Of a DNA stretch of 64,000 bases, positions 33,610 through 45,839 are shown piece by piece. The position numbers and the translations under genes were made by a program. Source of the stretch: Sphingosinithalassobacter sp. CS137 (GTDB taxonomy: Bacteria > Pseudomonadota > Alphaproteobacteria > Sphingomonadales > Sphingomonadaceae); contig NZ_CP060494.1 in assembly GCF_014334115.1 (NCBI RefSeq), positions 2,200,501-2,264,500 on the forward strand, given 5' to 3'. The notes below the pieces were generated by a model that was given only the letters and a program-made list of their open reading frames with translations, was not told where the DNA came from and made no database searches. Each line of letters opens with the position of its first letter. Position 1 is the first letter of the stretch.

Positions 33610-35910
33610 TCAGGCCTCGACCTGAGCGTCCGCGCGCAGCGTGCGCGCCGCCGCTACCATTGCGGCGATCGCGGGCTTCACTTCCTCCCAGTTGCGCGTC
33701 TTGAGCCCGCAATCGGGGTTCACCCACAGCTGTTCGGGACGCAGATGCTCCTGCGCAAGGCGCATCAGCGCCACCATTTCCTGCTCGGCGGGAACACGCG
33801 CGGAATGGATGTCGTAGACGCCCGGTCCGATCGCGCTCGGGTAGCGGTATCGCGCAAAGCCTTCGAGCAACTCCATCTGCGAGCGCGCGGTTTCGATCGA
33901 GATCACGTCGGTGTCCATCGCGGCGATCGACGGGAGGATCTCGTTGAACTCCGAATAGCACATATGCGTGTGGATCTGCGTGGCATTGCCCACGCCGGCG
34001 GCGGACAGGCGGAAGCAGTCGACAGCCCAGTCGAGATACGCCTGCCAGTCGCGCCTGCGCAGCGGCAGCCCCTCGCGCAGCGCCGCCTCGTCGATCTGGA
34101 TCGCCTTGCATCCGGCGGCCTCGAGATCGGTCACTTCGTCGCGGAGCGCGAGCGCGATCTGGCGGCAAGACGCCTCGCGCGGCTGGTCGTCCCGCACGAA
34201 GCTCCAGTTCAGGATCGTCACCGGGCCGGTGAGCATCCCCTTCACGGGCTTGTCGGTGAGCGATTGCGCGTACCGCCACCAGTCCACGGTCATTGGCCGC
34301 GGGCGCGAAACGTCGCCAAAGAGGATCGGCGGACGCACGCAGCGCGAGCCGTAGCTCTGCACCCACCCGTTCATGGTGAAGGCGAAGCCGGCGAGCTTCT
34401 CGCCGAAATACTGCACCATGTCGTTGCGCTCGAACTCGCCGTGGACGAGCACGTCGAGCCCGACGCCCTCCTGCCAGCGAATCGCGCGCTCGGTCTCTTC
34501 GCGCAGAAAGGCGTGATAGGCCGCGCCGTCGAGCGCTCCGCGGTTGTGCTCGGCACGGGCGTGGCGCACCTCGGCGGTCTGGGGGAAGGAGCCGATCGTG
34601 GTGGTGGGGAAGAGCGGCAGCGCCAGCACTTCGGCCTGCGCGCGGATGCGCTCGGCATGCCCCGCAGGCCGTTCGCGCATCGCAGGCGTCACTCCGGCGA
34701 GCCGCGCCTGCACCGCGGTGTCGTGGATGCGCGGCGAGGTCTTGCGGCTGGCGGCGGCGCGTGCCGAGGCGGCAAGCGCATCGTACACGCTCTCCGCGCC
34801 GCCGTTCAGCGCGCGCCGGAGCAGGTCGAGCTCCTCGATCTTCTGCACCGCGAAGGCGAGCCATTGCTTGAGCTCGTCGTCCAGCTTGGGCTCGAGCCCG
34901 AGGTCGACCGGCACGTGCAGCAGCGAGCAGGACGGCGCGAGCACCAGGTCGCGCTCCGCCGCCACCGGCTCGATCCGTGCGAGCAGTGCCTGCAGGTCGG
35001 CGCGCCACACGTTGCGCCCGTCGATCACGCCAAGCGACAGCAGCAGCTCCCTCGGCGCGCTGCGCAGCACTGTCTCGAGCTGGTCGGGCGCGCGGACGAG
35101 GTCGACGTGCAGCCCGGCGACGGGAAGCGAAGCGGCAAGCGACAGATTGTCTTCCAGCCCGCCGAAATACGTCGTCAGCATCAGCCTGGGCCCGCTCCGG
35201 CCGAGCTTGGCATAGGCGCGGGTGAAGGCGCGGCGCTGCGTCTCCGACAGGTCGGTCACGAGGATCGGCTCGTCGATCTGCACCCATTCGGCCCCCTCGC
35301 GCGCCAGATGGCCGAGGATCACGCCGTAGAGGCCGAGCACCTCGTCGAGCAGGTCGAACGGATCGACGCCCTGCCCCTTGGCGAGGCTGAGCCAGGTGAC
35401 GGGCCCCAGCAGGACCGGACGCGTGTCATAGCCCTGCGCCTTTGCCTCGCGATATTCCTCGACGATCTTGAGCCGGCCCAGGCTCAGCTTCTGTCCCGGC
35501 TCGATCTCGGGAACGATATAGTGGTAGTTGGTGTCGAACCATTTGGTCATTTCGCCCGCGGTAACGCTGCCATGGGCGTGGCCGCAGCCCGCGCCACCGG
35601 TACTGCCGCGCGCCATCGCGAAATAGGTGGCGAGGTCCGCTGTACCGTGCGCGGCGCCATAGCGCGTGGGGACGGCGCCCAGCATCAGGCTGGTGTCGAG
35701 CACATGATCGTAGAGCGAGAAGTCGTTGGACGGCAGCCAGTCGACGCCCAGCGCCTTCTGCCGCGCCCAGGCGGCGGTGCGCAGGCCCGCGGCGGTCTCC
35801 TGAAGCTGGGCCGCATCGATCGTGCCGGACCAGAATTTTTCGAGCGCGAATTTGAGCTCCCGACGCGGACCGATGCGCGGGAAGCCGAGTGTGGCAACAG
35901 TGACAGTCAT
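33610..35910 (-). CDS. metE: Cobalamin-independent methionine synthase
   Basis: 766 residues, the full size for MetE, which moves a methyl group from 5-methyltetrahydrofolate (polyglutamate) to homocysteine without B12. The opening LGFPRIGPRRELKFALEKFW, the zinc-site motifs HTHMCYSEF and NPDCGLKTRNW, and TTTIGSFPQT of the C-terminal half are all present. A cobalamin riboswitch lies in its leader, so the gene should be off when B12 is available and a MetH enzyme elsewhere takes over. The thioesterase gene follows closely. Confidence 0.97.
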   Translation of the reverse strand: MTVTVATLGFPRIGPRRELKFALEKFWSGTIDAAQLQETAAGLRTAAWARQKALGVDWLPSNDFSLYDHVLDTSLMLGAVPTRYGAAHGTADLATYFAMARGSTGGAGCGHAHGSVTAGEMTKWFDTNYHYIVPEIEPGQKLSLGRLKIVEEYREAKAQGYDTRPVLLGPVTWLSLAKGQGVDPFDLLDEVLGLYGVILGHLAREGAEWVQIDEPILVTDLSETQRRAFTRAYAKLGRSGPRLMLTTYFGGLEDNLSLAASLPVAGLHVDLVRAPDQLETVLRSAPRELLLSLGVIDGRNVWRADLQALLARIEPVAAERDLVLAPSCSLLHVPVDLGLEPKLDDELKQWLAFAVQKIEELDLLRRALNGGAESVYDALAASARAAASRKTSPRIHDTAVQARLAGVTPAMRERPAGHAERIRAQAEVLALPLFPTTTIGSFPQTAEVRHARAEHNRGALDGAAYHAFLREETERAIRWQEGVGLDVLVHGEFERNDMVQYFGEKLAGFAFTMNGWVQSYGSRCVRPPILFGDVSRPRPMTVDWWRYAQSLTDKPVKGMLTGPVTILNWSFVRDDQPREASCRQIALALRDEVTDLEAAGCKAIQIDEAALREGLPLRRRDWQAYLDWAVDCFRLSAAGVGNATQIHTHMCYSEFNEILPSIAAMDTDVISIETARSQMELLEGFARYRYPSAIGPGVYDIHSARVPAEQEMVALMRLAQEHLRPEQLWVNPDCGLKTRNWEEVKPAIAAMVAAARTLRADAQVEA

Positions 35911-35937: not shown

Positions 35938-36031
35938 GCGGCCGGACGGGCACGCACCGGACGCGCGGCGAGAAGACTCCGGCCGCGGACACGCAAGCGG
36001 CCAGACCGGGCACCCCGCCGGTGGACGGTAT

Positions 36032-36230
36032 CGCGTCGGAGGCAGGTCTCCTGGCTCGCGGGTCAGCACAGACGATCCGTCTTCCCAAGAGGCGAGCCCC
36101 TCAGTGACATCGGTGGATCGCTGCTCGCCACTTACAGTTGCGGGGGCAGCGCCGGCCTTGCGAGCGAACCCGCGCACCGGCTTCCCGTCTTAGCTTCGGC
36201 GCGGGCACGCCCGACCGAAGAACCTCGACA
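36032..36230 (-). ncRNA. Cobalamin riboswitch upstream of metE
   Basis: Read on the minus strand, the leader has the hallmark elements in order: gacGGGAAGCCGGTG, then CTGCCCCCGCAACTGTAAG (B12 box region), GTCACTGAG, TTGGGAAGACGG and AGCCAGGAGACCTGCC at the 3' end (36041-36055). These are the conserved core pieces of the AdoCbl riboswitch. The ends are approximate. It begins about 120 bases upstream of metE and should shut off metE when cobalamin is bound. Confidence 0.95.
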
Positions 36231-36258
36231 CGGTCAGCATCGGCGCAATCGCATCCCG

Positions 36259-36442: not shown

Positions 36443-36459
36443 ACGTTATACCATTGCAT
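36443..36459. promoter_or_regulatory. Zur-box-like sequence upstream of the TonB-CobN-like operon
   Basis: ACGTTATACCATTGCAT matches 12 of 16 non-central positions of the proteobacterial Zur pattern ATGTTATA-N-TATAACAT. It overlaps a possible -35 (TTGCAT, 36454-36459), the right place for repression. One degenerate match; treat as a lead. Confidence 0.35.
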
Positions 36460-36543: not shown

Positions 36544-38493
36544 ATGAAGCACTGGACATTTCTGTCGGCGGCCGCGCTTGTCTGCCTTTCGAGCACTGCA
36601 TGGGCACAGGATTTTGCCGGCGGGGACGCTTCCCGGCCGCGCGAGGGTGATACCCTCGTCGTGACTGCCACCCGGTCCGAGCAGGCGGTGTCCGAGGCGC
36701 CTGCCACCATTTCGGTCGTGACCGGTACCGAGCTACGCCGCCGGCCGGTGCAGGATCTCGCCGAGGCGCTCGAGAACGAGCCGGGCGTGGTGATCAACGG
36801 CATCGGCATGACGCGTCGCGGCATCTCGATCCGCGGCATGTCCAACGAACATGTGCTCACGCTGATCGACGGCCGGCGGATCAACGATTCCGCCGCCAAC
36901 ATGGCGCATGTCGATTTCGACCTCGGCTGGGTGCCCAGCATCGCGATCGATCAGATCGAGCTGGTGCGCGGCCCGCTTTCGGCGCTCTATGGCTCGGAGG
37001 CGCTGGCCGGCGTCGTCAACGTCCGCACGCGCCGGCCGGAGCGGCTGGAGGTGAGCGCGCTCGGCATCCTCGGCTTCCGTGACGGGGAGGGCGGCGACAG
37101 CGCGCAGCTGTCGGCGCTGGTCGGCGGCCCGTTGAGCGACACGCTCGGGCTGGTCGCATGGGGCGAATATCGCCACCGCGACCGCACGCAGAGCGCCGCC
37201 GATCCGCGGCAGAGCGAGCTGGAAGAGCGCGAGGCGCTGAGCGGGAGCATCATCGGCTGGTGGACGCCCGCGCCGGGCCATCGCATCGAGATCGGCCAGG
37301 CGGCGATCGACGATGATCGCACCCGCGACACGATCACTACCGGTTCCGCGCCGGTCTACTACGAATATCGGGATCATGTGACGCGCGCACAGACGCACGG
37401 CAGCTACACCGGCGAATGGGGCTGGGGTTCGGTGCAGGCGCGCGCCTATCGCTCGGTGCTGGAGCGCGTGAACGAACGCGACCAGAACCAGACGCCAACC
37501 CAGCCGACCAGGGGCGTCGACTTCGTCGCCGATGCGCAGCTGACGGTCGCGCCGTTCTCCGGCGCGCGGCTCACGCTGGGCGGTGAACATCGCAACGAGT
37601 GGCTGCGCGACGCCACCATCAACACGGCGGGCGAAGCGAGCGTCAACCATGACGCGCTGTTCGTGCAGGCCGAACGGGAGCTGACGCGCGGCGCGACGCT
37701 GACAGCCGGCAGCCGCTTCGACCATCACGACGCCTATGGGTGGGAAACGAGCCCGCGCGCCTATCTGGTGATCGAGCCGCTCCCCGGATTGACGCTGCGC
37801 GGCGGCGTCGGCGGAGCATTCAAGGCGCCCAGCCTGAAGCAGCTGTCGCCGGGCTACATCACGGTGGCGGCGGGCGGCCGCTTCATCATCACCGGCAATC
37901 CGGATCTGAAGCCCGAGACGAGCACCAGCTATGAAGCGGGCGCGACCTATTACGGTTCGGCATGGCAGCTCGGCGCCACGGTGTTCCAGAACGACCTTAA
38001 CAATCTGGTGCAGACCGAATGCGTTGCATTCTGCGGAATCCGCGGCCGCGAGCGCCGCACCTATCTGAACGTCAACCGCGCGCGCATCCGCGGCGTCGAA
38101 GTGAGCGGCAGCGTTTCGCCCGTCGCGACGATTACACTGTCGGGTAGCTACAGCTATGTCGATCCGCGCGACCTTTCGGCCGACCAAGAGCTGACCGAGC
38201 GGCCGAACCATACGGCAAAGGTGCAGCTTGGCTGGCAGGCGCTGGAGACCACACGGCTCGAGGTGCGCGGGCGCTATATCGGCGAGCAGACGCTGCTCTC
38301 GAACGCGGTGCCGGTCCGGCTCCCGGATTACAGCCTGTGGTCGCTCGACGCGAGCCAGGCGCTTACGGATGCGCTGACGCTGAAAGCCGGTGTCGACAAT
38401 CTGTTCGACGAGCGACTTTCGGATGCTTCGGGGCTCTACAGCTTTGCCGAGCCCGGCCGCATCTTCTTCGTCGGCCTGGGCGCCAACTTCTGA
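36544..38493 (+). CDS. TonB-dependent receptor of the CobN-like chelatase operon
   Basis: 649-residue outer-membrane receptor, BtuB/HmuR/CirA size. Signal peptide ends STAWAQ; TonB-box-like GDTLVVTAT; plug with GVVINGIGMTRRGISIRGMSNEHVLTLIDGRR and IELVRGPLSALYGSEALAGV; barrel with FKAPSLKQLSPGY and GNPDLKPETS (the FxAP and NPxL boxes seen in heme-type and related receptors) and a terminal FFVGLGANF. It is followed five bases later by the exported chelatase-like gene. Substrate may be a zinc complex, corrinoid or tetrapyrrole; context does not settle it. Confidence 0.88.
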   Translation: MKHWTFLSAAALVCLSSTAWAQDFAGGDASRPREGDTLVVTATRSEQAVSEAPATISVVTGTELRRRPVQDLAEALENEPGVVINGIGMTRRGISIRGMSNEHVLTLIDGRRINDSAANMAHVDFDLGWVPSIAIDQIELVRGPLSALYGSEALAGVVNVRTRRPERLEVSALGILGFRDGEGGDSAQLSALVGGPLSDTLGLVAWGEYRHRDRTQSAADPRQSELEEREALSGSIIGWWTPAPGHRIEIGQAAIDDDRTRDTITTGSAPVYYEYRDHVTRAQTHGSYTGEWGWGSVQARAYRSVLERVNERDQNQTPTQPTRGVDFVADAQLTVAPFSGARLTLGGEHRNEWLRDATINTAGEASVNHDALFVQAERELTRGATLTAGSRFDHHDAYGWETSPRAYLVIEPLPGLTLRGGVGGAFKAPSLKQLSPGYITVAAGGRFIITGNPDLKPETSTSYEAGATYYGSAWQLGATVFQNDLNNLVQTECVAFCGIRGRERRTYLNVNRARIRGVEVSGSVSPVATITLSGSYSYVDPRDLSADQELTERPNHTAKVQLGWQALETTRLEVRGRYIGEQTLLSNAVPVRLPDYSLWSLDASQALTDALTLKAGVDNLFDERLSDASGLYSFAEPGRIFFVGLGANF

Positions 38494-38498
38494 TCGCG

Positions 38499-41400
38499 AT
38501 GCGCCGGCTGCTGTTCCTGATCTGGCTGCTCCTGTGGGGCATGCCGGCTGCGGCGCAGCAGCCGGTACCAGTGGTGCGCATCGTCACGACGGACTTCGTG
38601 CTTCCGGCAAAGTTCGAGCGGATGGCCGAATGGGCGCAGGCTGCGGGGCTGGAGCTGGATTGGGTCGTCGCGGGTGGTGCGGCGGCGCAGCCACCCGTCG
38701 AAGACGCCGCGATGCTGATCCTCGACGGCCCGCGGCCCAGCGACATGGCGAGCATCGAGCGACTGGTCGGCGACACCGCGACGCTTACGCTCCCCTGGAT
38801 CAAAGTGGGGGGCGGCCCGCCGGGCTTCGGCAATCTGCCGCCCGGAACCGCGCGGCGGCTGATCGGCTATTATGCCGCGGGCGGCGCGCCCAATCTGCGG
38901 AACTTCGTCGTGGCCGCGGGCCGGGCGCTCGCCGGATCGCCGGTCGACGATCTGCCCGCCCCGGTTCCGCTGCCGGAAACGGGCATCTACCATCCCGATG
39001 CCGAGACGGTGTTCGCCACGCCGGACACGTATCGCGCTTGGCTCGCCGCGCGCGGTGCGGCGGCGCGGCCCATCGTCGCCATCGCGATTTCGGACGGGCT
39101 GCTGCGCGACATGCAGACCGATGTGGTCGACGCGATCGCGCGCAGCGTCGAGGCACGCGGGCTCGCGCCGGCACTGTTCTGGTTCGATGCGTCGGACGCG
39201 GAGGGGCTGACCAGCCTGCTGGCACCGCTCGGCGCGCAGGCGCTGGTGAACATGACGCACATGCAGAATGGCGATGCGCGCAAGGCCGAGTTCGCCGCAC
39301 TCGACATGCCCGTGCTGCAGGCGATCGGCGACCGCTCGAACAGCGTGGCGGAATGGCGCAATGCGACTTCGGGCGTCCCGGCTTATTCGGCGGCGGTGAC
39401 GCTGAGCGTCCCGGAAAGCTGGGGAATCTCCGATCCCATCGTGGTGAGCGCAGTCGAGGGCGGACGCGCCGTTCCGATTCCCGAACAGGTCGAACTGTTG
39501 ACCGGCAAGCTCGCGCGCCTGGTCGCGCTGCGCACCAAGCCCGCGCAGGACAAGCACATCGCACTGTTCTTCTGGAACCATCCGGTCGGCGAGGAGAATT
39601 TCTCCGCCTCGAACCTCAACGTCCCGCGCAGCCTGGAAAAGCTCACCCGCGATCTCGCCGACGCCGGCTACCGGGTCACCCCGGCGGACGAGGCGCAGCT
39701 GATCGATGCGGCGCAGGCAATGATGGGCGGTCTCTACCGTCCCGAGACGCTGGACGATCTGCTCGCACGGGGACTGGCGGCGCGTCTGCCGGTGGCGGAC
39801 TATCGCGCCTGGCTGGCGACCCTGCCCGAGGCGCGCCGCGCCGAGCTGTCGGCGGCGATGGCGAACCCGGAACAGCATTGGGCTGTGCGCGGCGGCGATT
39901 TCATCATTCCCCGGCTGCAGCTCGGCAATCTCGTCATCCTGCCGCAGCCGCCACGCGGGGGCGATCCGACGCGCAGCTATCACGATCTGACCAACGTTCC
40001 CGATCCGCTCTATCTCGCCACCTATCTGTGGGTGCGCAGCCACGCGCAGGCGGACGCGATCGTCCATTTCGGCACGCACGGCACCCAGGAATGGACGCCG
40101 GGCAAGGATCGCGGGCTGTGGGCCGGCGACTATCCGATGCTGCTGGTCGGCGACCTGCCGGTCTTCTACCCCTATATCCAGGACAATGTCGCCGAGGCAA
40201 TCCAGGCGCGGCGGCGCGGCCGCGCCGTTACGGTGAGCCACCAGACGCCCGCCTTCGCCCCCTCCGGCCTCTATGACGAGCTGCGCGACCTTCATTCGCG
40301 GATCCACGAATATGCGCAGGTCGAGGAAGGTGCCGTGCGCGACCGGCTGGCGGGGGAAATTCGCGAGGCTGCGTTCGCGGCGCATCTGGCAGACGACATC
40401 GGCTGGGATCGCGCGGCCGCCGGTCGCGACTTCGCGGGCTTCTACACCGCGCTGCACGATCATCTCCATCAGCTCGCGCGCAGCGCCATTCCGCTGGGCC
40501 TCCATGTCTTCGGCGAGCCCGCCGCGCCCGAGCACCGGCTGACGACGGTGATGCAGCAGCTCGGCCCCGACTATCTCCGCGCGCTCGGCATCGATCCGGT
40601 CGAAGCCTTTGCGGAGGATTTCTCGCAGCTTCGGGAAAGCCTGCCCTACACGACCTTGGCGCGCTACCTGCGTGACGGCGAGCCGACCAACGGCATCGCC
40701 GACGCCGGGCTGCGCGCGCAGGTCGAACGCGCCATGGCGCTCGAGCGCAACCTCGCCGAGCCGGGCGAGACCGAAGCGCTGCTGCAGGGGCTCGCGGGCG
40801 GGTTCGTGCTGCCCGGCGCGGGCGGCGATCCAGTGCGCAACCCGGAGGTGGCGAGCGGACGCAATCTCTTCGCGTTCGAGGCGGAGAAGGTTCCGGCCCA
40901 GGCCGCCTATGAAGAGGGCGGCAAGGCGTTCGACCAGCTGCTCGCGGCGTATGCCGGACGCCATGAGGGCGCGCTGCCGGAAAAGCTGGCGTTCAGCATG
41001 TTCGCGGGCGAGACGATCCGCACGCTCGGCGTGACTGAGGGGCAGATTCTCCACGCGCTCGGTCTGCGTCCGGTATGGGGGCGCGGCGGCCGCGTCGAGA
41101 CGCTGGAGATCATCCCGATCGCCGAGCTTGGCCGGCCGCGCATCGATGTCGTCGTGCAGGCGAGCAGCGTTTATCGCGACCAGTTCGACGGCTTCATGCG
41201 GCTGCTGGGCGACGCGATCGACCGGCTTGCGGCGCTCGACGAGCCGGGGCTGGCGCGCAACGCCCGCGACACCGAGGCACGGCTGGTGGCGCGCGGCATC
41301 GCGCCCGAGCGCGCGCGCGAACTCGCGCGGTTGCGCATCTTCAGCAACGCGCCCGGCGAGTACGGCAGCGGCCTGCCCGATCGGATCGCAAAGGACGCCG

Positions 41401-42380
41401 ACTGGGAGAGCGAGGACGAACTCGCCGCGACGTTCCTCGACCGGCTGCAATATGCCTATGGCGCGCGAGACTGGGGGCTGAAGCTGGAGGGTACGAACCT
41501 GTTCGCCGAGCAGCTACGCGGCGTCGATGCCGCGGTGCTCTCGCGCTCAACGAACGTCCATGGGCTGCTCTCGACCGATCATCCGTTCGAATATCTGGGG
41601 GGGCTCTCGCTCGCGGTGCGCAGCGTTTCCGGCGAGGCGCCCGACCTGTTCGTCACCGACCTGCGCCAGAGCGGCATGCCGCGCACCACGACGGCGGCCG
41701 CGTTCCTGTCGGACGAGCTGCGCGCGCGCTACCTCAACCCGCACTGGATCGGTGAGATGCAGAAGCAGGGCTATGCCGGCGCGACCGAGATGCTCGACGT
41801 CGTCAACAATCTCTGGGGATGGCAGGTGACCGATCCTGCCACCGTGCGCGCCGACCAGTGGCAGGCGATGCACGACACCTATGTGCGCGACACCCGCAAT
41901 CTGGGGCTCGACCGCTTTTTCGAGGCGGTGCATCCGGATGCGCAGCTGCAGATGATCGATCGGATGCGCGAGGCGATCGCCCGCGGCTATTGGCAGGCGG
42001 ACGCGGCGACTCGCGCCGAACTGGACGCCCGCCGCGACGCCCTTGCCCGGCTTGCCGGCGAAGCCAGCGCCGTAGCGCCGAACGGCGGCTTCGGCCTTTC
42101 GCCCGCCGCTGTCTCGAACGCGGGGACGCTCTCGGGCGCCGCCGCGCCGCCGCCGCCCGCCCCGGCGCAGGCGGACCCGCACGTCTCGCCCGCTCAGTCT
42201 TCAGCCCCGCCGCGCGGTTTCGTCCTGAAGAAGCAGGAGCTGTCGCAGCCCCAGGCCACCACTCTGCGCGGCACGGCTCCGGCGGCGGCGGCGATCCTGT
42301 TCCTTCTGCTCCTCGGCGCGCTCCTCGAGTGGCGCGCGCGCCGAAATTCTCTTGAAAAGGTTGCCGATGCCCGCGCTTGA
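38499..42380 (+). CDS. Exported, membrane-anchored CobN-like chelatase (HmuS-like)
   Basis: 1293 residues of the CobN/BchH large chelatase-subunit family but with a Sec signal peptide (MRRLLFLIWLLLWGMPAAAQQ) and a C-terminal membrane span (about 1262-1277, ILFLLLLGALLEW) with a basic cytosolic end, so the enzyme body should lie in the periplasm. The family metal-site motif HFGTHGTQEWTPGK is at residues 523-536. Cytosolic CobN inserts cobalt with CobST and ATP; none of these is nearby and ATP is not available outside. HmuS of Bacteroides, a related protein, removes iron from heme. Here metal removal or handling of a receptor-delivered ligand is the likely role. Confidence 0.85.
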   Translation: MRRLLFLIWLLLWGMPAAAQQPVPVVRIVTTDFVLPAKFERMAEWAQAAGLELDWVVAGGAAAQPPVEDAAMLILDGPRPSDMASIERLVGDTATLTLPWIKVGGGPPGFGNLPPGTARRLIGYYAAGGAPNLRNFVVAAGRALAGSPVDDLPAPVPLPETGIYHPDAETVFATPDTYRAWLAARGAAARPIVAIAISDGLLRDMQTDVVDAIARSVEARGLAPALFWFDASDAEGLTSLLAPLGAQALVNMTHMQNGDARKAEFAALDMPVLQAIGDRSNSVAEWRNATSGVPAYSAAVTLSVPESWGISDPIVVSAVEGGRAVPIPEQVELLTGKLARLVALRTKPAQDKHIALFFWNHPVGEENFSASNLNVPRSLEKLTRDLADAGYRVTPADEAQLIDAAQAMMGGLYRPETLDDLLARGLAARLPVADYRAWLATLPEARRAELSAAMANPEQHWAVRGGDFIIPRLQLGNLVILPQPPRGGDPTRSYHDLTNVPDPLYLATYLWVRSHAQADAIVHFGTHGTQEWTPGKDRGLWAGDYPMLLVGDLPVFYPYIQDNVAEAIQARRRGRAVTVSHQTPAFAPSGLYDELRDLHSRIHEYAQVEEGAVRDRLAGEIREAAFAAHLADDIGWDRAAAGRDFAGFYTALHDHLHQLARSAIPLGLHVFGEPAAPEHRLTTVMQQLGPDYLRALGIDPVEAFAEDFSQLRESLPYTTLARYLRDGEPTNGIADAGLRAQVERAMALERNLAEPGETEALLQGLAGGFVLPGAGGDPVRNPEVASGRNLFAFEAEKVPAQAAYEEGGKAFDQLLAAYAGRHEGALPEKLAFSMFAGETIRTLGVTEGQILHALGLRPVWGRGGRVETLEIIPIAELGRPRIDVVVQASSVYRDQFDGFMRLLGDAIDRLAALDEPGLARNARDTEARLVARGIAPERARELARLRIFSNAPGEYGSGLPDRIAKDADWESEDELAATFLDRLQYAYGARDWGLKLEGTNLFAEQLRGVDAAVLSRSTNVHGLLSTDHPFEYLGGLSLAVRSVSGEAPDLFVTDLRQSGMPRTTTAAAFLSDELRARYLNPHWIGEMQKQGYAGATEMLDVVNNLWGWQVTDPATVRADQWQAMHDTYVRDTRNLGLDRFFEAVHPDAQLQMIDRMREAIARGYWQADAATRAELDARRDALARLAGEASAVAPNGGFGLSPAAVSNAGTLSGAAAPPPPAPAQADPHVSPAQSSAPPRGFVLKKQELSQPQATTLRGTAPAAAAILFLLLLGALLEWRARRNSLEKVADARA

Positions 42381-42840
42381 AGCCCTGCTCTACGATGCCT
42401 CGCGCATCTTCCTCGTGCCCGTGATGGTGCTGATTCTCGCGGCGCTCGCCTATGCGCTGATCAGCCTCGGCCGGTTCGGCGTGGAGGCACTCGCGCGTAT
42501 GCGCGGGCGCGGTGGCACGCCGCTGACGGCGCACTGGCGGCGGACCGGCGGCGCGACCGATGATCTCGAACTCGTTGTCATGCGCCGCCTCGAATGGCTG
42601 CGCGTCGTTTCGCGCAGCACGCCGATGCTGGGTCTCGTCGCCACGATGATCCCGATGGGGCCGGCGCTGCTCGCGCTGGGCAGCAACGACGGTGCCAGTG
42701 TGGGTGAGAATCTGGTGGTCGCCTTCTCGTCGGTGATCCTCGCGCTCATCAGCGCCTCGATCACCTTCTTCATCTATACAATCCGCCGCCGCTGGCTGCT
42801 CGAGGAGTTGCGCGCGATCGAAATCGAAAGGAATGGCTGA
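42367..42840 (+). CDS. ExbB/TolQ/MotA-family membrane protein
   Basis: 157 residues, three spans (FLVPVMVLILAALAYALISL; LGLVATMIPMGPALLAL; LVVAFSSVILALISASITFFIY) with the MotA/TolQ/ExbB channel signature (RSTPMLGLVATMIPMGPALLALG). Such proteins form proton-driven motors. ATG 42367 has aaagg upstream and overlaps the chelatase stop by 14 bases; a TTG at 42352 is less likely. It probably energises the chelatase-containing assembly together with the DUF2149 protein, as ExbB does with ExbD. Confidence 0.85.
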   Translation: MPALEALLYDASRIFLVPVMVLILAALAYALISLGRFGVEALARMRGRGGTPLTAHWRRTGGATDDLELVVMRRLEWLRVVSRSTPMLGLVATMIPMGPALLALGSNDGASVGENLVVAFSSVILALISASITFFIYTIRRRWLLEELRAIEIERNG

Positions 42841-43151
42841 TGCGCTTCCTGGAAGATGACGAGGCCGACGATCCCATCCTATCGGTGGTCAATCTGGTCG
42901 ACCTGTTTCTGGTGATCCTCGCGGTGCTGATGGTGATCATCGCGCGCAATCCGCTGAACCCCTTCCAGTCGAAGCAGGTGGTTGTGGTCGAGAATCCGGG
43001 GCAGAAAGACATGACCATCACCGTGAAGGATGGCGAGAAGCTGGAGCGGTACACCTCGACCGCGGAGATGGGCGACGGCGGCGGCGTGAAGGCGGGCGTC
43101 ACCTATCGATTGCCGGACGGAAGTCTTGTCTATGTACCGGAACAGCAGTGA
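42840..43151 (+). CDS. DUF2149 protein (ExbD-like partner)
   Basis: 103 residues: acidic start, one membrane span (NLVDLFLVILAVLMVIIA) with an aspartate at its head (VDLFL), then a small periplasmic domain (GQKDMTITVKDGEKLERY, GVTYRLPDGSLVYVPEQQ). The topology copies ExbD/TolR, where such an aspartate carries protons. Start codon shares a base with the upstream stop (TGATG). Fourth and last intact gene of the operon. Confidence 0.8.
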   Translation: MRFLEDDEADDPILSVVNLVDLFLVILAVLMVIIARNPLNPFQSKQVVVVENPGQKDMTITVKDGEKLERYTSTAEMGDGGGVKAGVTYRLPDGSLVYVPEQQ

Positions 43152-43316: not shown

Positions 43317-43385
43317 CAGCAGCACCGATTGGTGAATGTTCGACGATTGAGTTACGTCCCGTCAGATAACTTCAGGAGCGTCTTC

Positions 43386-45839
43386 ATGCCGAAAGCGAAT
43401 TGCCGTCCTCTGCGCGCCTCCCTGGTAACGGTCCTGCTTGCGGGATGCGCAGTCCCGGCGCTTGCGCAAGACGCGCCGATCGTACAACCGGGAGCCCCCG
43501 GGCAGGCGTCACGGACGCTGAGCGCCAGCGATGCCGCTTCGGTTGCTGCGGCGCGCTACACACCGGCGGATATCCGGTTCATGCAAGGCATGATCCCGCA
43601 TCATTACCAAGCGGTGCTGATGGCCAATCTGGTCGCCGAGCGCACCAATCGCCCTGAGCTGATCGCCATCGCCGAGCGGATCCGCGGCTCGCAGGCAGAC
43701 GAGATCACGTTCATGCAGCAGTGGTTGCGCGATCGGGGCGCCGACGCACCGGACCCCGCCGGCCCGCACGCCATGCATCACGGTGGCGCGCATGGCGGCC
43801 ATGACATGGGCAACGGGCACACGCCGCTGATGGCCGGCATGGCGACGCCCGAACAGATGGCGCAGCTCGCCACGCTGAGCGGCACGCCGTTCGATCGGAT
43901 GTTCCTTGAGCTGATGATCCCGCATCACCGGGGGGCAATCACGATGGTCGAGGCACTCTACGACCAGCAAGGTAGCGCCACCGATCCGTATCTGTTCGAA
44001 TTTGCGAACGATGTCGTCAACGAGCAACAGGCCGAGATCGGGCGGATGGCGGCGTTGCTCGCCGGGCTTTCCAGCGATCCCCGTGCGGGCCTGAGCGCTG
44101 GTTTCCGCGACGCAGGTTCGGCGATCTCGAATCTCGAACTGGTCGCTTCGCTGCCGAAGCCGACCGGCTTTTTCGATCCGGAGAATCCGGCGGGTCTGCG
44201 ACAGCGCAAGCCGGCAAACCTGGCCGAGACGCCGGGCGGTGAACCCGGCTTCGTCGAGCGCGGCGGGCTGCTGAGCTTTGCGAACACCGACATGGCCTTC
44301 GCCGGCAATGTGATGGTCGCCGGCAATTATCATGGCTTCAATGTCTATGACATCGCGGGCGCCGGCGCGCCGCGCCTGATCAGTTCCGTTGTCTGCCCCG
44401 GCGGGCAGGGCGACGTGTCGATTGTCGGCGACCTCTTGATCATGTCGGTCGAGCAGACGCGCGGCCGGTTGGATTGCGGGCTTCAGGGAGTGGAGGAAGA
44501 TGTCAGCGCGGAACGCTTCCGCGGCATCCGTATCTTCGACGTGAGCGATTTCACGCGGCCGCGACAGGTGGGGGCGGTGCAGACCTGCCGCGGATCGCAC
44601 ACCCATTCGGTCGTTTCCGGCCCGGGTGAGGACGGTGTGATCACCGTCTATGTCTCGGGCACGGCATCGGTGCGGTCGGGCGAGGAACTGGCCGGGTGCG
44701 TGGGCGAGGTGCCGGGCGACCAGCGCACGGCGCTGTTCCGCATCGACGTGGTCGAGATCCCGGTGGCGGATCCCGCGCGCGCACGGATCGTCGCGAGCCC
44801 CGCGGTGTTCGCCGATCCCGCCACCGGGGAACTGGCGGGCCTCTGGCGCGGCGGCGATCATGGCGAGGGCACGCAGGACACCGCGCGCACCGATCATTGC
44901 CACGATATCACGGTCTTCCCCTCGCGCGATCTGGCAGCCGGGGCATGCTCGGGCAACGGCATCATCTTCGACATCAGCGACCCACGGGCGCCGAAGCGGC
45001 TCGATGTCGTCACCGATCCCGGCTTTGCCTATTGGCATTCCGCCACGTTCAATAATGACGGGACCAAGGTCCTGTTCACCGACGAATGGGGCGGTGGCGG
45101 ACGTCCACGTTGCCGGAGCTATGACCCGCGCACCTGGGGCGCCGACGCGATCTACGACATCAGCGCGGCCAACCAGCTCGAATTCGGCAGCTATTTCAAG
45201 CTTCCCGCGCCGCAGAGCGAACAGGAAAACTGCGTCGCGCATAACGGCGCGATCGTCCCGGTTCCGGGCCGGGATATCTTCATTCAGGCCTGGTATCAGG
45301 GCGGGCTTTCGCTGATCGATTTCACTGACAGCGCGAACCCGGTCGAAATCGGCTATTTCGATCGCGGCCCGATCGATGCCGACCAGATGGCGATGGGCGG
45401 CTATTGGTCGGCCTATTGGTACGATGGCCGCATCTACGGGACGGAGATCGCCCGGGGGATCGACGTGTTCGCGCTGAAGCCGAGCGCGCATCTGACCGCA
45501 AACGAGATCGCTGCCGCAAAGCTCGCGGATCAGGGCCGTGTGTTCAATCCCCAGCAGCAATTCCCGGTCAACTGGCCCGCCGACCCGGTGGTCGCGAAAG
45601 CCTTTCTCGATCAGCTCGAACGGACCGACAGTCTGTCCGCGTCGATGCGCGCGGCGCTTGACGAAGCACTCGATGCCGCTGCGCTGCGGCTGGGTGCCGG
45701 CAACACCGATTCGGGGCTTTCGGACCGGTTGGCCGCGCTTGCCGGCCAGTTGCCGCCGGCAGACGGCGGCGATGCGGTCGCGCGGCGACTCGCTGGCCTT
45801 GCCGAAACGCTGAACGGGATCGCCGCGCGGCTGCGCTGA
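43386..45839 (+). CDS. Secreted DUF305 protein fused to LVIVD-repeat beta-propeller
   Basis: 817 residues. Signal region (LVTVLLAGCAVPALAQ); two DUF305 units (FMQGMIPHHYQAVLMANLVAE; FLELMIPHHRGAITMVEALYD) separated by a His-rich stretch (HAMHHGGAHGGHDMGNGH); then LVIVD-type repeats (GFNVYDIAGAGAPRLISS; GIRIFDVSDFTRPRQVG; SLIDFTDSANPVEIGYFDRG) forming a probable propeller. DUF305 units carry paired histidines typical of copper-linked proteins. Start supported by caggag. It may be a periplasmic metal-binding or scaffold protein; the function is not established. Confidence 0.82.
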   Translation: MPKANCRPLRASLVTVLLAGCAVPALAQDAPIVQPGAPGQASRTLSASDAASVAAARYTPADIRFMQGMIPHHYQAVLMANLVAERTNRPELIAIAERIRGSQADEITFMQQWLRDRGADAPDPAGPHAMHHGGAHGGHDMGNGHTPLMAGMATPEQMAQLATLSGTPFDRMFLELMIPHHRGAITMVEALYDQQGSATDPYLFEFANDVVNEQQAEIGRMAALLAGLSSDPRAGLSAGFRDAGSAISNLELVASLPKPTGFFDPENPAGLRQRKPANLAETPGGEPGFVERGGLLSFANTDMAFAGNVMVAGNYHGFNVYDIAGAGAPRLISSVVCPGGQGDVSIVGDLLIMSVEQTRGRLDCGLQGVEEDVSAERFRGIRIFDVSDFTRPRQVGAVQTCRGSHTHSVVSGPGEDGVITVYVSGTASVRSGEELAGCVGEVPGDQRTALFRIDVVEIPVADPARARIVASPAVFADPATGELAGLWRGGDHGEGTQDTARTDHCHDITVFPSRDLAAGACSGNGIIFDISDPRAPKRLDVVTDPGFAYWHSATFNNDGTKVLFTDEWGGGGRPRCRSYDPRTWGADAIYDISAANQLEFGSYFKLPAPQSEQENCVAHNGAIVPVPGRDIFIQAWYQGGLSLIDFTDSANPVEIGYFDRGPIDADQMAMGGYWSAYWYDGRIYGTEIARGIDVFALKPSAHLTANEIAAAKLADQGRVFNPQQQFPVNWPADPVVAKAFLDQLERTDSLSASMRAALDEALDAAALRLGAGNTDSGLSDRLAALAGQLPPADGGDAVARRLAGLAETLNGIAARLR

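Follow-up and report, generated by a model that had tools for sequence, protein, structure and literature searches.

We found a four-gene operon within a 64,000 nt window of the Sphingosinithalassobacter sp. CS137 genome (NZ_CP060494.1, positions 2,200,501 to 2,264,500) that may encode a Zur-repressed metal-scavenging machine, in which a periplasmic CobN-like de-chelatase would act on a complex of zinc or of a metal replacing zinc; we give this reading an even chance. Four contiguous plus-strand genes, touching or overlapping, encode a TonB-dependent receptor, a CobN-family protein, an ExbB-like protein and a DUF2149 protein, just as an earlier sequence-only reading of this DNA had laid them out. 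The CobN-like gene starts with the ATG at 38499, 5 bp past the receptor stop codon, its 3′ end is overlapped by the ExbB-like frame, and the ExbB-like stop codon is overlapped by the DUF2149 ATG. The earlier reading had taken the operon for an exported chelatase system distinct from the CobN of cobalamin synthesis, and the present analysis supports this view, since by sequence the chelatase appears neither cytosolic nor allied to homologues at cobalamin synthesis genes. Removal of the metal is strongly argued by analogy with known chelatases, our confidence in zinc as the metal is moderate, and the ligand is most likely a tetrapyrrole because known class I chelatases use one.

The CobN-like protein is predicted to be exported and membrane-anchored. 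Its signal-type N-terminus reads MRRLLFLIWLLLWGMPAAAQ, and a hydrophobic segment follows near the C-terminus. We compared 84 CobN-like sequences, consisting of the window protein, those of 80 related loci and three from further genomes, with 30 canonical CobN proteins taken as the best-scoring PF02514 matches; the 80 loci are the best of 480 confirmed stretches, so that this sample leans to close relatives. In a simple hydropathy test with arbitrary thresholds, a hydrophobic N-terminus was detected in 75/84 CobN-like versus 1/30 canonical sequences and a C-terminal anchor in 73/84 versus 0/30, some of the misses being truncated at contig ends or marginally below threshold. These counts argue against a cytosolic localization, which the earlier reading had named as its own undoing. 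The core of 78/84 CobN-like proteins is devoid of cysteine, while canonical CobN contains 10.5 cysteines on average and at least 5, and HmuS, the heme de-chelatase of Bacteroides, has 6 across its whole length. This scarcity is an independent sign, though a sequence-based one, of export. The CobN-Mg_chel domain (974 bits, Pfam) extends over most of the protein, which is assigned by domain and fold to the class I chelatases. Ahead of the C-terminal helix, 78/84 CobN-like and 0/30 canonical sequences have a VxGxVL-type juxtamembrane motif; by eye, HmuS carries KGVVMKKEE at this position.

The sequence-only reading had drawn a parallel with HmuS, and HmuS indeed proved to be the closest solved structure by sequence (466 bits, compared with 349 for CobN and 343 for ChlH; profile scores 610/521/500). 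In HmuS, His538 and His1209 hold the active-site cation, the H538A substitution abolishes activity, and the recombinant protein removes iron (PMC12583661; this and all other papers are cited from excerpts). The equivalent of His538, His527 in the window protein, is His in 84/84 CobN-like, 6/6 HmuS and 30/30 canonical CobN sequences. In contrast, the positions of HmuS His1209 and Glu1212 are His/Glu in 84/84 CobN-like sequences, including the window protein, and Asp/Gln in 30/30 canonical ones. The heme ligand His254 of HmuS is aligned with a residue that is His in 81/84 CobN-like, 6/6 HmuS and 0/30 canonical sequences. The other heme ligand, Met79, corresponds to Leu in the window, and Met is not among the five commonest residues at this position, where the alignment of the head is uncertain. 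The Met-rich insertion of HmuS is also missing (47 aa with 0 Met versus 212 aa with 23 Met), and the residues at the Gln1198 and Trp1202 positions differ. In trees that took in 55 and 23 of the sequences, HmuS and the window-type proteins formed well-separated clades.

HmuS, encoded in hmuYRSTUV, thus resembles the window protein in its class I chelatase fold, signal, C-terminal anchor and His-His-Glu site, and according to the literature its operon also contains ExbB-like and DUF2149 genes. The window operon differs in having neither HmuY nor HmuT and in bearing Zur- rather than Fur-type boxes. A member of the window's own clade, P0067, is named by its source 'CobN-like chelatase BtuS for metalloporphyrine salvage'. 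BtuS was recognized as a third CobN-related type (Rodionov et al. 2003, cited in PMC6460266). It is periplasmic and anchored, and the window protein fits this type, being exported and anchored by sequence and located outside cobalamin loci. BtuS1 and BtuS2 of B. fragilis, however, serve heme iron (PMC6460266), whereas the control in the window is of the zinc type. CobN of CobNST and ChlH/BchH share the class I chelatase fold and the His538 equivalent with the window protein but are cytosolic, and canonical CobN is further set apart by its many cysteines and by Asp/Gln at the second site.

The tight linkage of the genes was borne out by a gene-neighborhood survey and exceeds chance. The chelatase, ExbB-like and DUF2149 genes follow one another in 78/80 loci, which span Alpha-, Beta- and Gammaproteobacteria, and both misses are contig ends. 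A receptor resembling that of the window (at least 200 bits) is encoded in 71/80 loci; two loci begin inside the chelatase gene, and seven Hyphomicrobiales loci harbor a different kind of TonB receptor at the same place (recognized by Pfam in five and as a BLAST cluster of seven). Since the ExbB-like and DUF2149 genes are kept when the receptor type changes, these putative motor genes follow the chelatase and not a particular receptor. The recurrent flank clusters that were identified comprise an ABC ATPase, ZigA, a FauA-like receptor and the alternative receptor. The ZigA-type GTPase cluster flanks 11 loci; its single scanned member exceeds the ZigA cut-off, and a Zur-like gene, under cut-off, lies beside it. 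In Xanthomonas massiliensis, a second DUF2149-like frame is found close to a second receptor (L053:14698-15042).

The upstream regions point to control by zinc. The Zur-type box of the window, located 85 bp before the receptor ATG, matches 10 of 14 positions of TGTTATANTATAACA. It has one mismatch to the published Pseudomonas consensus, but 16% of control windows are as good, and the box is not significant alone. It is one of three zero-mismatch matches to GTTATANNATNNCA in the genome. GTTATACCATNGCA is found again 50 bp upstream of a receptor that has a His-rich loop and scores best with the ZnuD model of NCBIfam; 29 bp upstream of a MerC-Fur pair there is a related site, and the Fur member of this pair agrees best with Zur. 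The ZnuD and Zur scores are both under the curated cut-offs. The window box draws its support from these sites of its own genome, the near-identical one upstream of the ZnuD-like receptor and the related one upstream of merC-zur. The genome contains 13 pattern matches; for 10 of them no link to a zinc gene was established, and the reversed pattern gives 15.

We then scored 77 upstream regions, that is, 76 loci and the window, leaving out L003, L005, L045 and L059 because the receptor start is outside the locus; a separate count under a stricter rule used 70 regions. Zur-type palindromes matching at least 10 of 14 positions of an assumed consensus were found in 61/77 regions and those matching at least 12 in 33/77, versus 2.0% and 0.17% of windows drawn at random from these loci. 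Reversed and scrambled motifs reached at least 10 in 15/77 and 12/77 regions and at least 12 in none, and shuffled upstream DNA gave 5.0% and 0.08% at the two thresholds. The published Pseudomonas consensus is exact in 49/77 regions (control, 0.9%; shuffled upstream DNA, 1.5%). The box-bearing regions come from three proteobacterial classes, and boxes scoring at least 11 precede the alternative receptor in 6/7 Hyphomicrobiales loci. A Fur consensus was not enriched (0/77 at 13 of 18; control, 2.65%). As Zur-type boxes stand upstream of the relatives and at zinc genes of the window's genome, the operon would belong to the zinc-starvation response and is probably induced when zinc is short. The substrate, which the earlier reading had left open, is narrowed accordingly to this response. 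That the related operons, too, are preceded by a Zur-type box is a new finding of this analysis. ZnuA had no match in the window's genome in a search that found it in 11/14 control genomes, and a ZIP-family match is barely over the cut-off (36.8 bits).

One family member, P0111, comes from P. aeruginosa, shows 58% identity across 91% of the query and is presumably PA1923. The likeness to the PA1922-PA1925 locus, suggested by the earlier reading, therefore holds for the family (NF004644, 2325 bits), the concept of the operon and its control by zinc starvation (PMC4542158, PMC8531726), although the window operon is a distant sphingomonad-type relative. PA1922-PA1925, made up of a receptor, a CobN-like, an ExbD-named and a hypothetical protein, is under Zur control and responds to zinc starvation with strong induction, and uptake of free zinc or cobalt has been discussed for it (PMC4542158, PMC8531726, PMC8456098, PMC11761036, PMC13083405, PMC10393844). 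In the literature consulted, Zur binding and a response to zinc are documented for P. aeruginosa only. Its transcripts were 45- to 147-fold up in a znuA mutant (PMC4542158). A review that considered 150 bp upstream states that P. aeruginosa seems to be alone in its genus in placing PA1922 under Zur (PMC10393844), whereas the boxes found here span three classes. In the 70-region count, 18 regions come from loci that bear the names Pseudomonas, Stutzerimonas, Halopseudomonas, Ventosimonas or Denitrificimonas; of these, 7 score 12-14 of 14 and another 7 score only 7-8, suggesting that this control is wider than P. aeruginosa but not universal. In their excerpts, the P. aeruginosa papers treat the gene as one for B12, cobalt or free-zinc uptake, and no proposal of a zinc de-chelatase of this type was found in the literature searched, outside of which most subscription papers lay.

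The database name would make the window protein an ordinary cobaltochelatase CobN of B12 synthesis, which we regard as extremely improbable. The NCBIfam equivalog NF004644 'CobN' matches it over the cut-off (1665 bits), and CobS and CobT are encoded in the genome, over their cut-offs, about 500 kb away (L136:4329-7561). However, the P. aeruginosa member of the exported clade reaches 2325 bits with NF004644, while the one canonical CobN compared with NCBIfam (L111) matched TIGR02257 best (1607 bits). The model named 'cobaltochelatase subunit CobN' thus appears to describe the exported clade, in which case automatic annotation misnames the clade. Among 289 genomes of the class, CobT occurs in 222 and any CobN-family gene (PF02514) in 115; CobT therefore does not mark cobalt insertion, and orphan CobST is common. 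The window's genome, a single contig of 3.19 Mb, has CobS and CobT without a cytosolic CobN, its sole CobN-family gene being that of the operon, and CbiC, an enzyme of corrin ring synthesis, was not found in it. The earlier statement that the chelatase works without CobST consequently stands for the operon and, by location, for the periplasm, but not for the genome.

DUF2149 matches 9/289 genomes of the class and exceeds the cut-off in 7, all of which carry a CobN-family gene. CbiC is present in 1/7 of these genomes versus 94/108 of the other PF02514 genomes, contrary to the location of homologues at cobalamin synthesis genes that the sequence-only reading had set against itself. The DUF2149 gene adjoins the CobN-family gene in five of the seven (G000, G135, G183, G266 and G287) and lies on a different contig from the listed CobN-family matches in G127 and G227. 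G266, the only one with CbiC, has a second CobN-family gene on its CbiC contig. In G287, a 1464-aa CobN-family protein without the His1209 and His254 equivalents is encoded beside a weak DUF2149 match (L142) and is perhaps another CobN-family type. The missing CbiC, the replacement of Asp/Gln by His/Glu and the distribution of CbiC, together with the predicted export, led us to reject a role in B12 synthesis.

Other cargoes and roles have to be weighed against zinc de-chelation. Cobalt or a corrinoid is an unlikely cargo in our judgment, even though the protein is kin to CobN. Pederick et al. noted that the P. aeruginosa operon may explain the raised cobalt in the znuA mutant (PMC4542158), other Zur-regulated genes of this species were assigned to pyochelin-cobalt traffic (PMC11481552), and cobalt represses the Zur regulon (PMC13083405). 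Nevertheless, the window receptor, with Plug and TonB_dep_Rec_b-barrel domains in Pfam, is CirA-like (349 bits, under the NCBIfam cut-off of 745), and BtuB models are far under their cut-off; the receptor is of another kind in 7 loci; and no corrinoid gene is among the identified recurrent flank clusters, the remaining clusters, mostly shadow frames, lying outside the scanned set. It is quite improbable that the operon is a proteobacterial HmuS system demetallating heme for iron, with a zinc link that is regulatory only. The nearest solved relative by sequence is a heme de-chelatase that shares the catalytic His pair and His254, the operon content resembles hmuRSUV (PMC10434189, PMC13227078), and the genome has a FeoB match, but the boxes are of the Zur and not the Fur type, Met79 and the Met-rich insertion are missing, and residues differ at Gln1198 and Trp1202. 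In addition, an operon of just four genes leaves no room for HmuT or HmuY. Similarly improbable is a CobN-like protein that is no enzyme but a high-capacity periplasmic binder or a metal inserter, passing zinc to a carrier or making zinc-corrin or zinc-porphyrin. CobN and ChlH insert metals, and BtuS mutants of B. fragilis retained de-chelatase activity in extracts (PMC6460266); on the other hand, 84/84 sequences retain the active-site pair of HmuS, a protein whose recombinant form removes iron (PMC12583661).

The ExbB-like protein matches MotA_ExbB weakly (PF01618, 26.3 bits; cut-off, 22.9), in keeping with the ExbB/TolQ-like assignment made earlier, and has no NCBIfam match and no PDB sequence match at E 1. 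The DUF2149 protein contains its domain at 86 bits (Pfam) and, in a low-confidence model, one predicted membrane helix (12-36) with Asp21, followed by a small strand-rich domain. Asp21 of DUF2149 and Thr98 of the ExbB-like protein (numbered from TTG) are each kept in 79/79 rows, and we take them to resemble the Asp of ExbD and the Thr of ExbB. The single predicted helix with Asp21 is in keeping with the description of DUF2149 as ExbD-like; kinship to ExbD gained no support from sequence or from a fold search made with the low-confidence model. Canonical CobN appears to go without these genes, as judged from the genome-wide DUF2149 search, the flanks of the canonical loci being short (about 1.5 kb each).

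The pair could energize the TonB receptor only, with the chelatase working without it, which is rather doubtful. Besides the MotA_ExbB match, a legend in the HmuS paper assigns HmuU and HmuV to receptor energization (PMC12583661). Yet a change in the kind of receptor leaves the pair immediately downstream of the chelatase, the genome has three further ExbD/TolR-family matches elsewhere, and a TonB gene was not seen among the genes of the operon. Methanosarcina acetivorans, an archaeon that lacks an outer membrane, also has matches to both DUF2149 and the CobN family, as genome co-occurrence only. A motor that acts on the chelatase is a reasoned guess, and the conserved juxtamembrane VxGxVL segment is proposed as its docking strand.

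CobN and ChlH/BchH work with ATP-driven partners. In the zinc de-chelation reading, Zur would leave its box at low cellular zinc and the four proteins would be made. The receptor would import the metal complex to the periplasm, probably energized by the ordinary TonB motor of the genome. The CobN-like protein, held by its C-terminal helix, would bind the complex between head/neck, with His254, and body, and place the metal between His527 and His1028, the latter held by Glu1031; protonation of the ligand would then let the metal leave. This would be the HmuS reaction on a complex of zinc or of a zinc-replacing metal, possibly cobalt. The freed metal may enter through an inner-membrane carrier, for which the ZIP-family match is a candidate. 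The ExbB-like/DUF2149 pair would dock on the juxtamembrane segment as a small unit powered by protons. It would take the part that AAA+ partners play for CobN and ChlH, either resetting the head of the chelatase or pulling the product out. Only tentatively do we extend this to a proton-motive-force-driven zinc de-chelatase in many Proteobacteria, in which such a motor, docked at VxGxVL, replaces the AAA+ ATPase and frees zinc from zinc-tetrapyrroles in zinc starvation.

The features of the operon are listed in Table 1. Its divergent neighbor is metE (33610-35910, minus strand), preceded by a cobalamin riboswitch (RF00174, 108.6 bits, 36023-36242, minus strand). As MetE is a zinc enzyme, two metal-linked controls stand back to back. 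The riboswitch was rejected as a regulator of the operon, since this sole Rfam match at the gathering threshold lies on the minus strand before metE, and so was the metE linkage as a clue, metE being near the operon in just 2/83 other loci, whose flank lengths differ. Directly downstream, 43329-45839 encodes an 836-aa protein with a DUF305/CopM-like and a choice-of-anchor-B-like region; none of its relatives was found in the flanks of 83 other loci.

Table 1. Coordinates of the operon and its features in the window.
Feature	Position	Strand	Basis or remark
Zur-type box GTTATACCATTGCA	36445..36458	.	
TonB-dependent outer-membrane receptor, CirA-like, 649 aa	36544..38493	+	ORF, Pfam, NCBIfam
CobN-family (BtuS/HmuS-like) chelatase, 1293 aa, no cysteine, predicted exported and membrane-anchored	38499..42380	+	
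Signal-type N-terminus MRRLLFLIWLLLWGMPAAA	38499..38555 (end approximate)	+	read from sequence
His254, aligned with HmuS heme ligand His254	39258..39260	+	alignment
His527 in HFGTHG, equivalent of HmuS His538	40077..40079	+	alignment
Asp1027-His1028 ... Glu1031, equivalents of HmuS Asp1208, His1209, Glu1212	41577..41591	+	
Juxtamembrane motif PRGFVLKKQ before the C-terminal helix	42210..42236	+	alignment
C-terminal hydrophobic anchor	42276..42332 (limits approximate)	+	read from sequence
ExbB/TolQ/MotA-like membrane protein	42352..42840	+	TTG start, 162 aa, or ATG 42367, 157 aa
DUF2149 protein, 103 aa	42840..43151	+	

Databases give this gene family the name 'cobaltochelatase CobN'. The present evidence favors a role in de-chelation, as part of the response of many Proteobacteria to zinc starvation. 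His527, His1028 and Glu1031 of the chelatase and Asp21 of DUF2149 are concrete residues for testing loci of the PA1922-PA1925 type. If this reading is true, zinc locked in tetrapyrroles would be a zinc source for bacteria, and chelatases could be driven by proton force.

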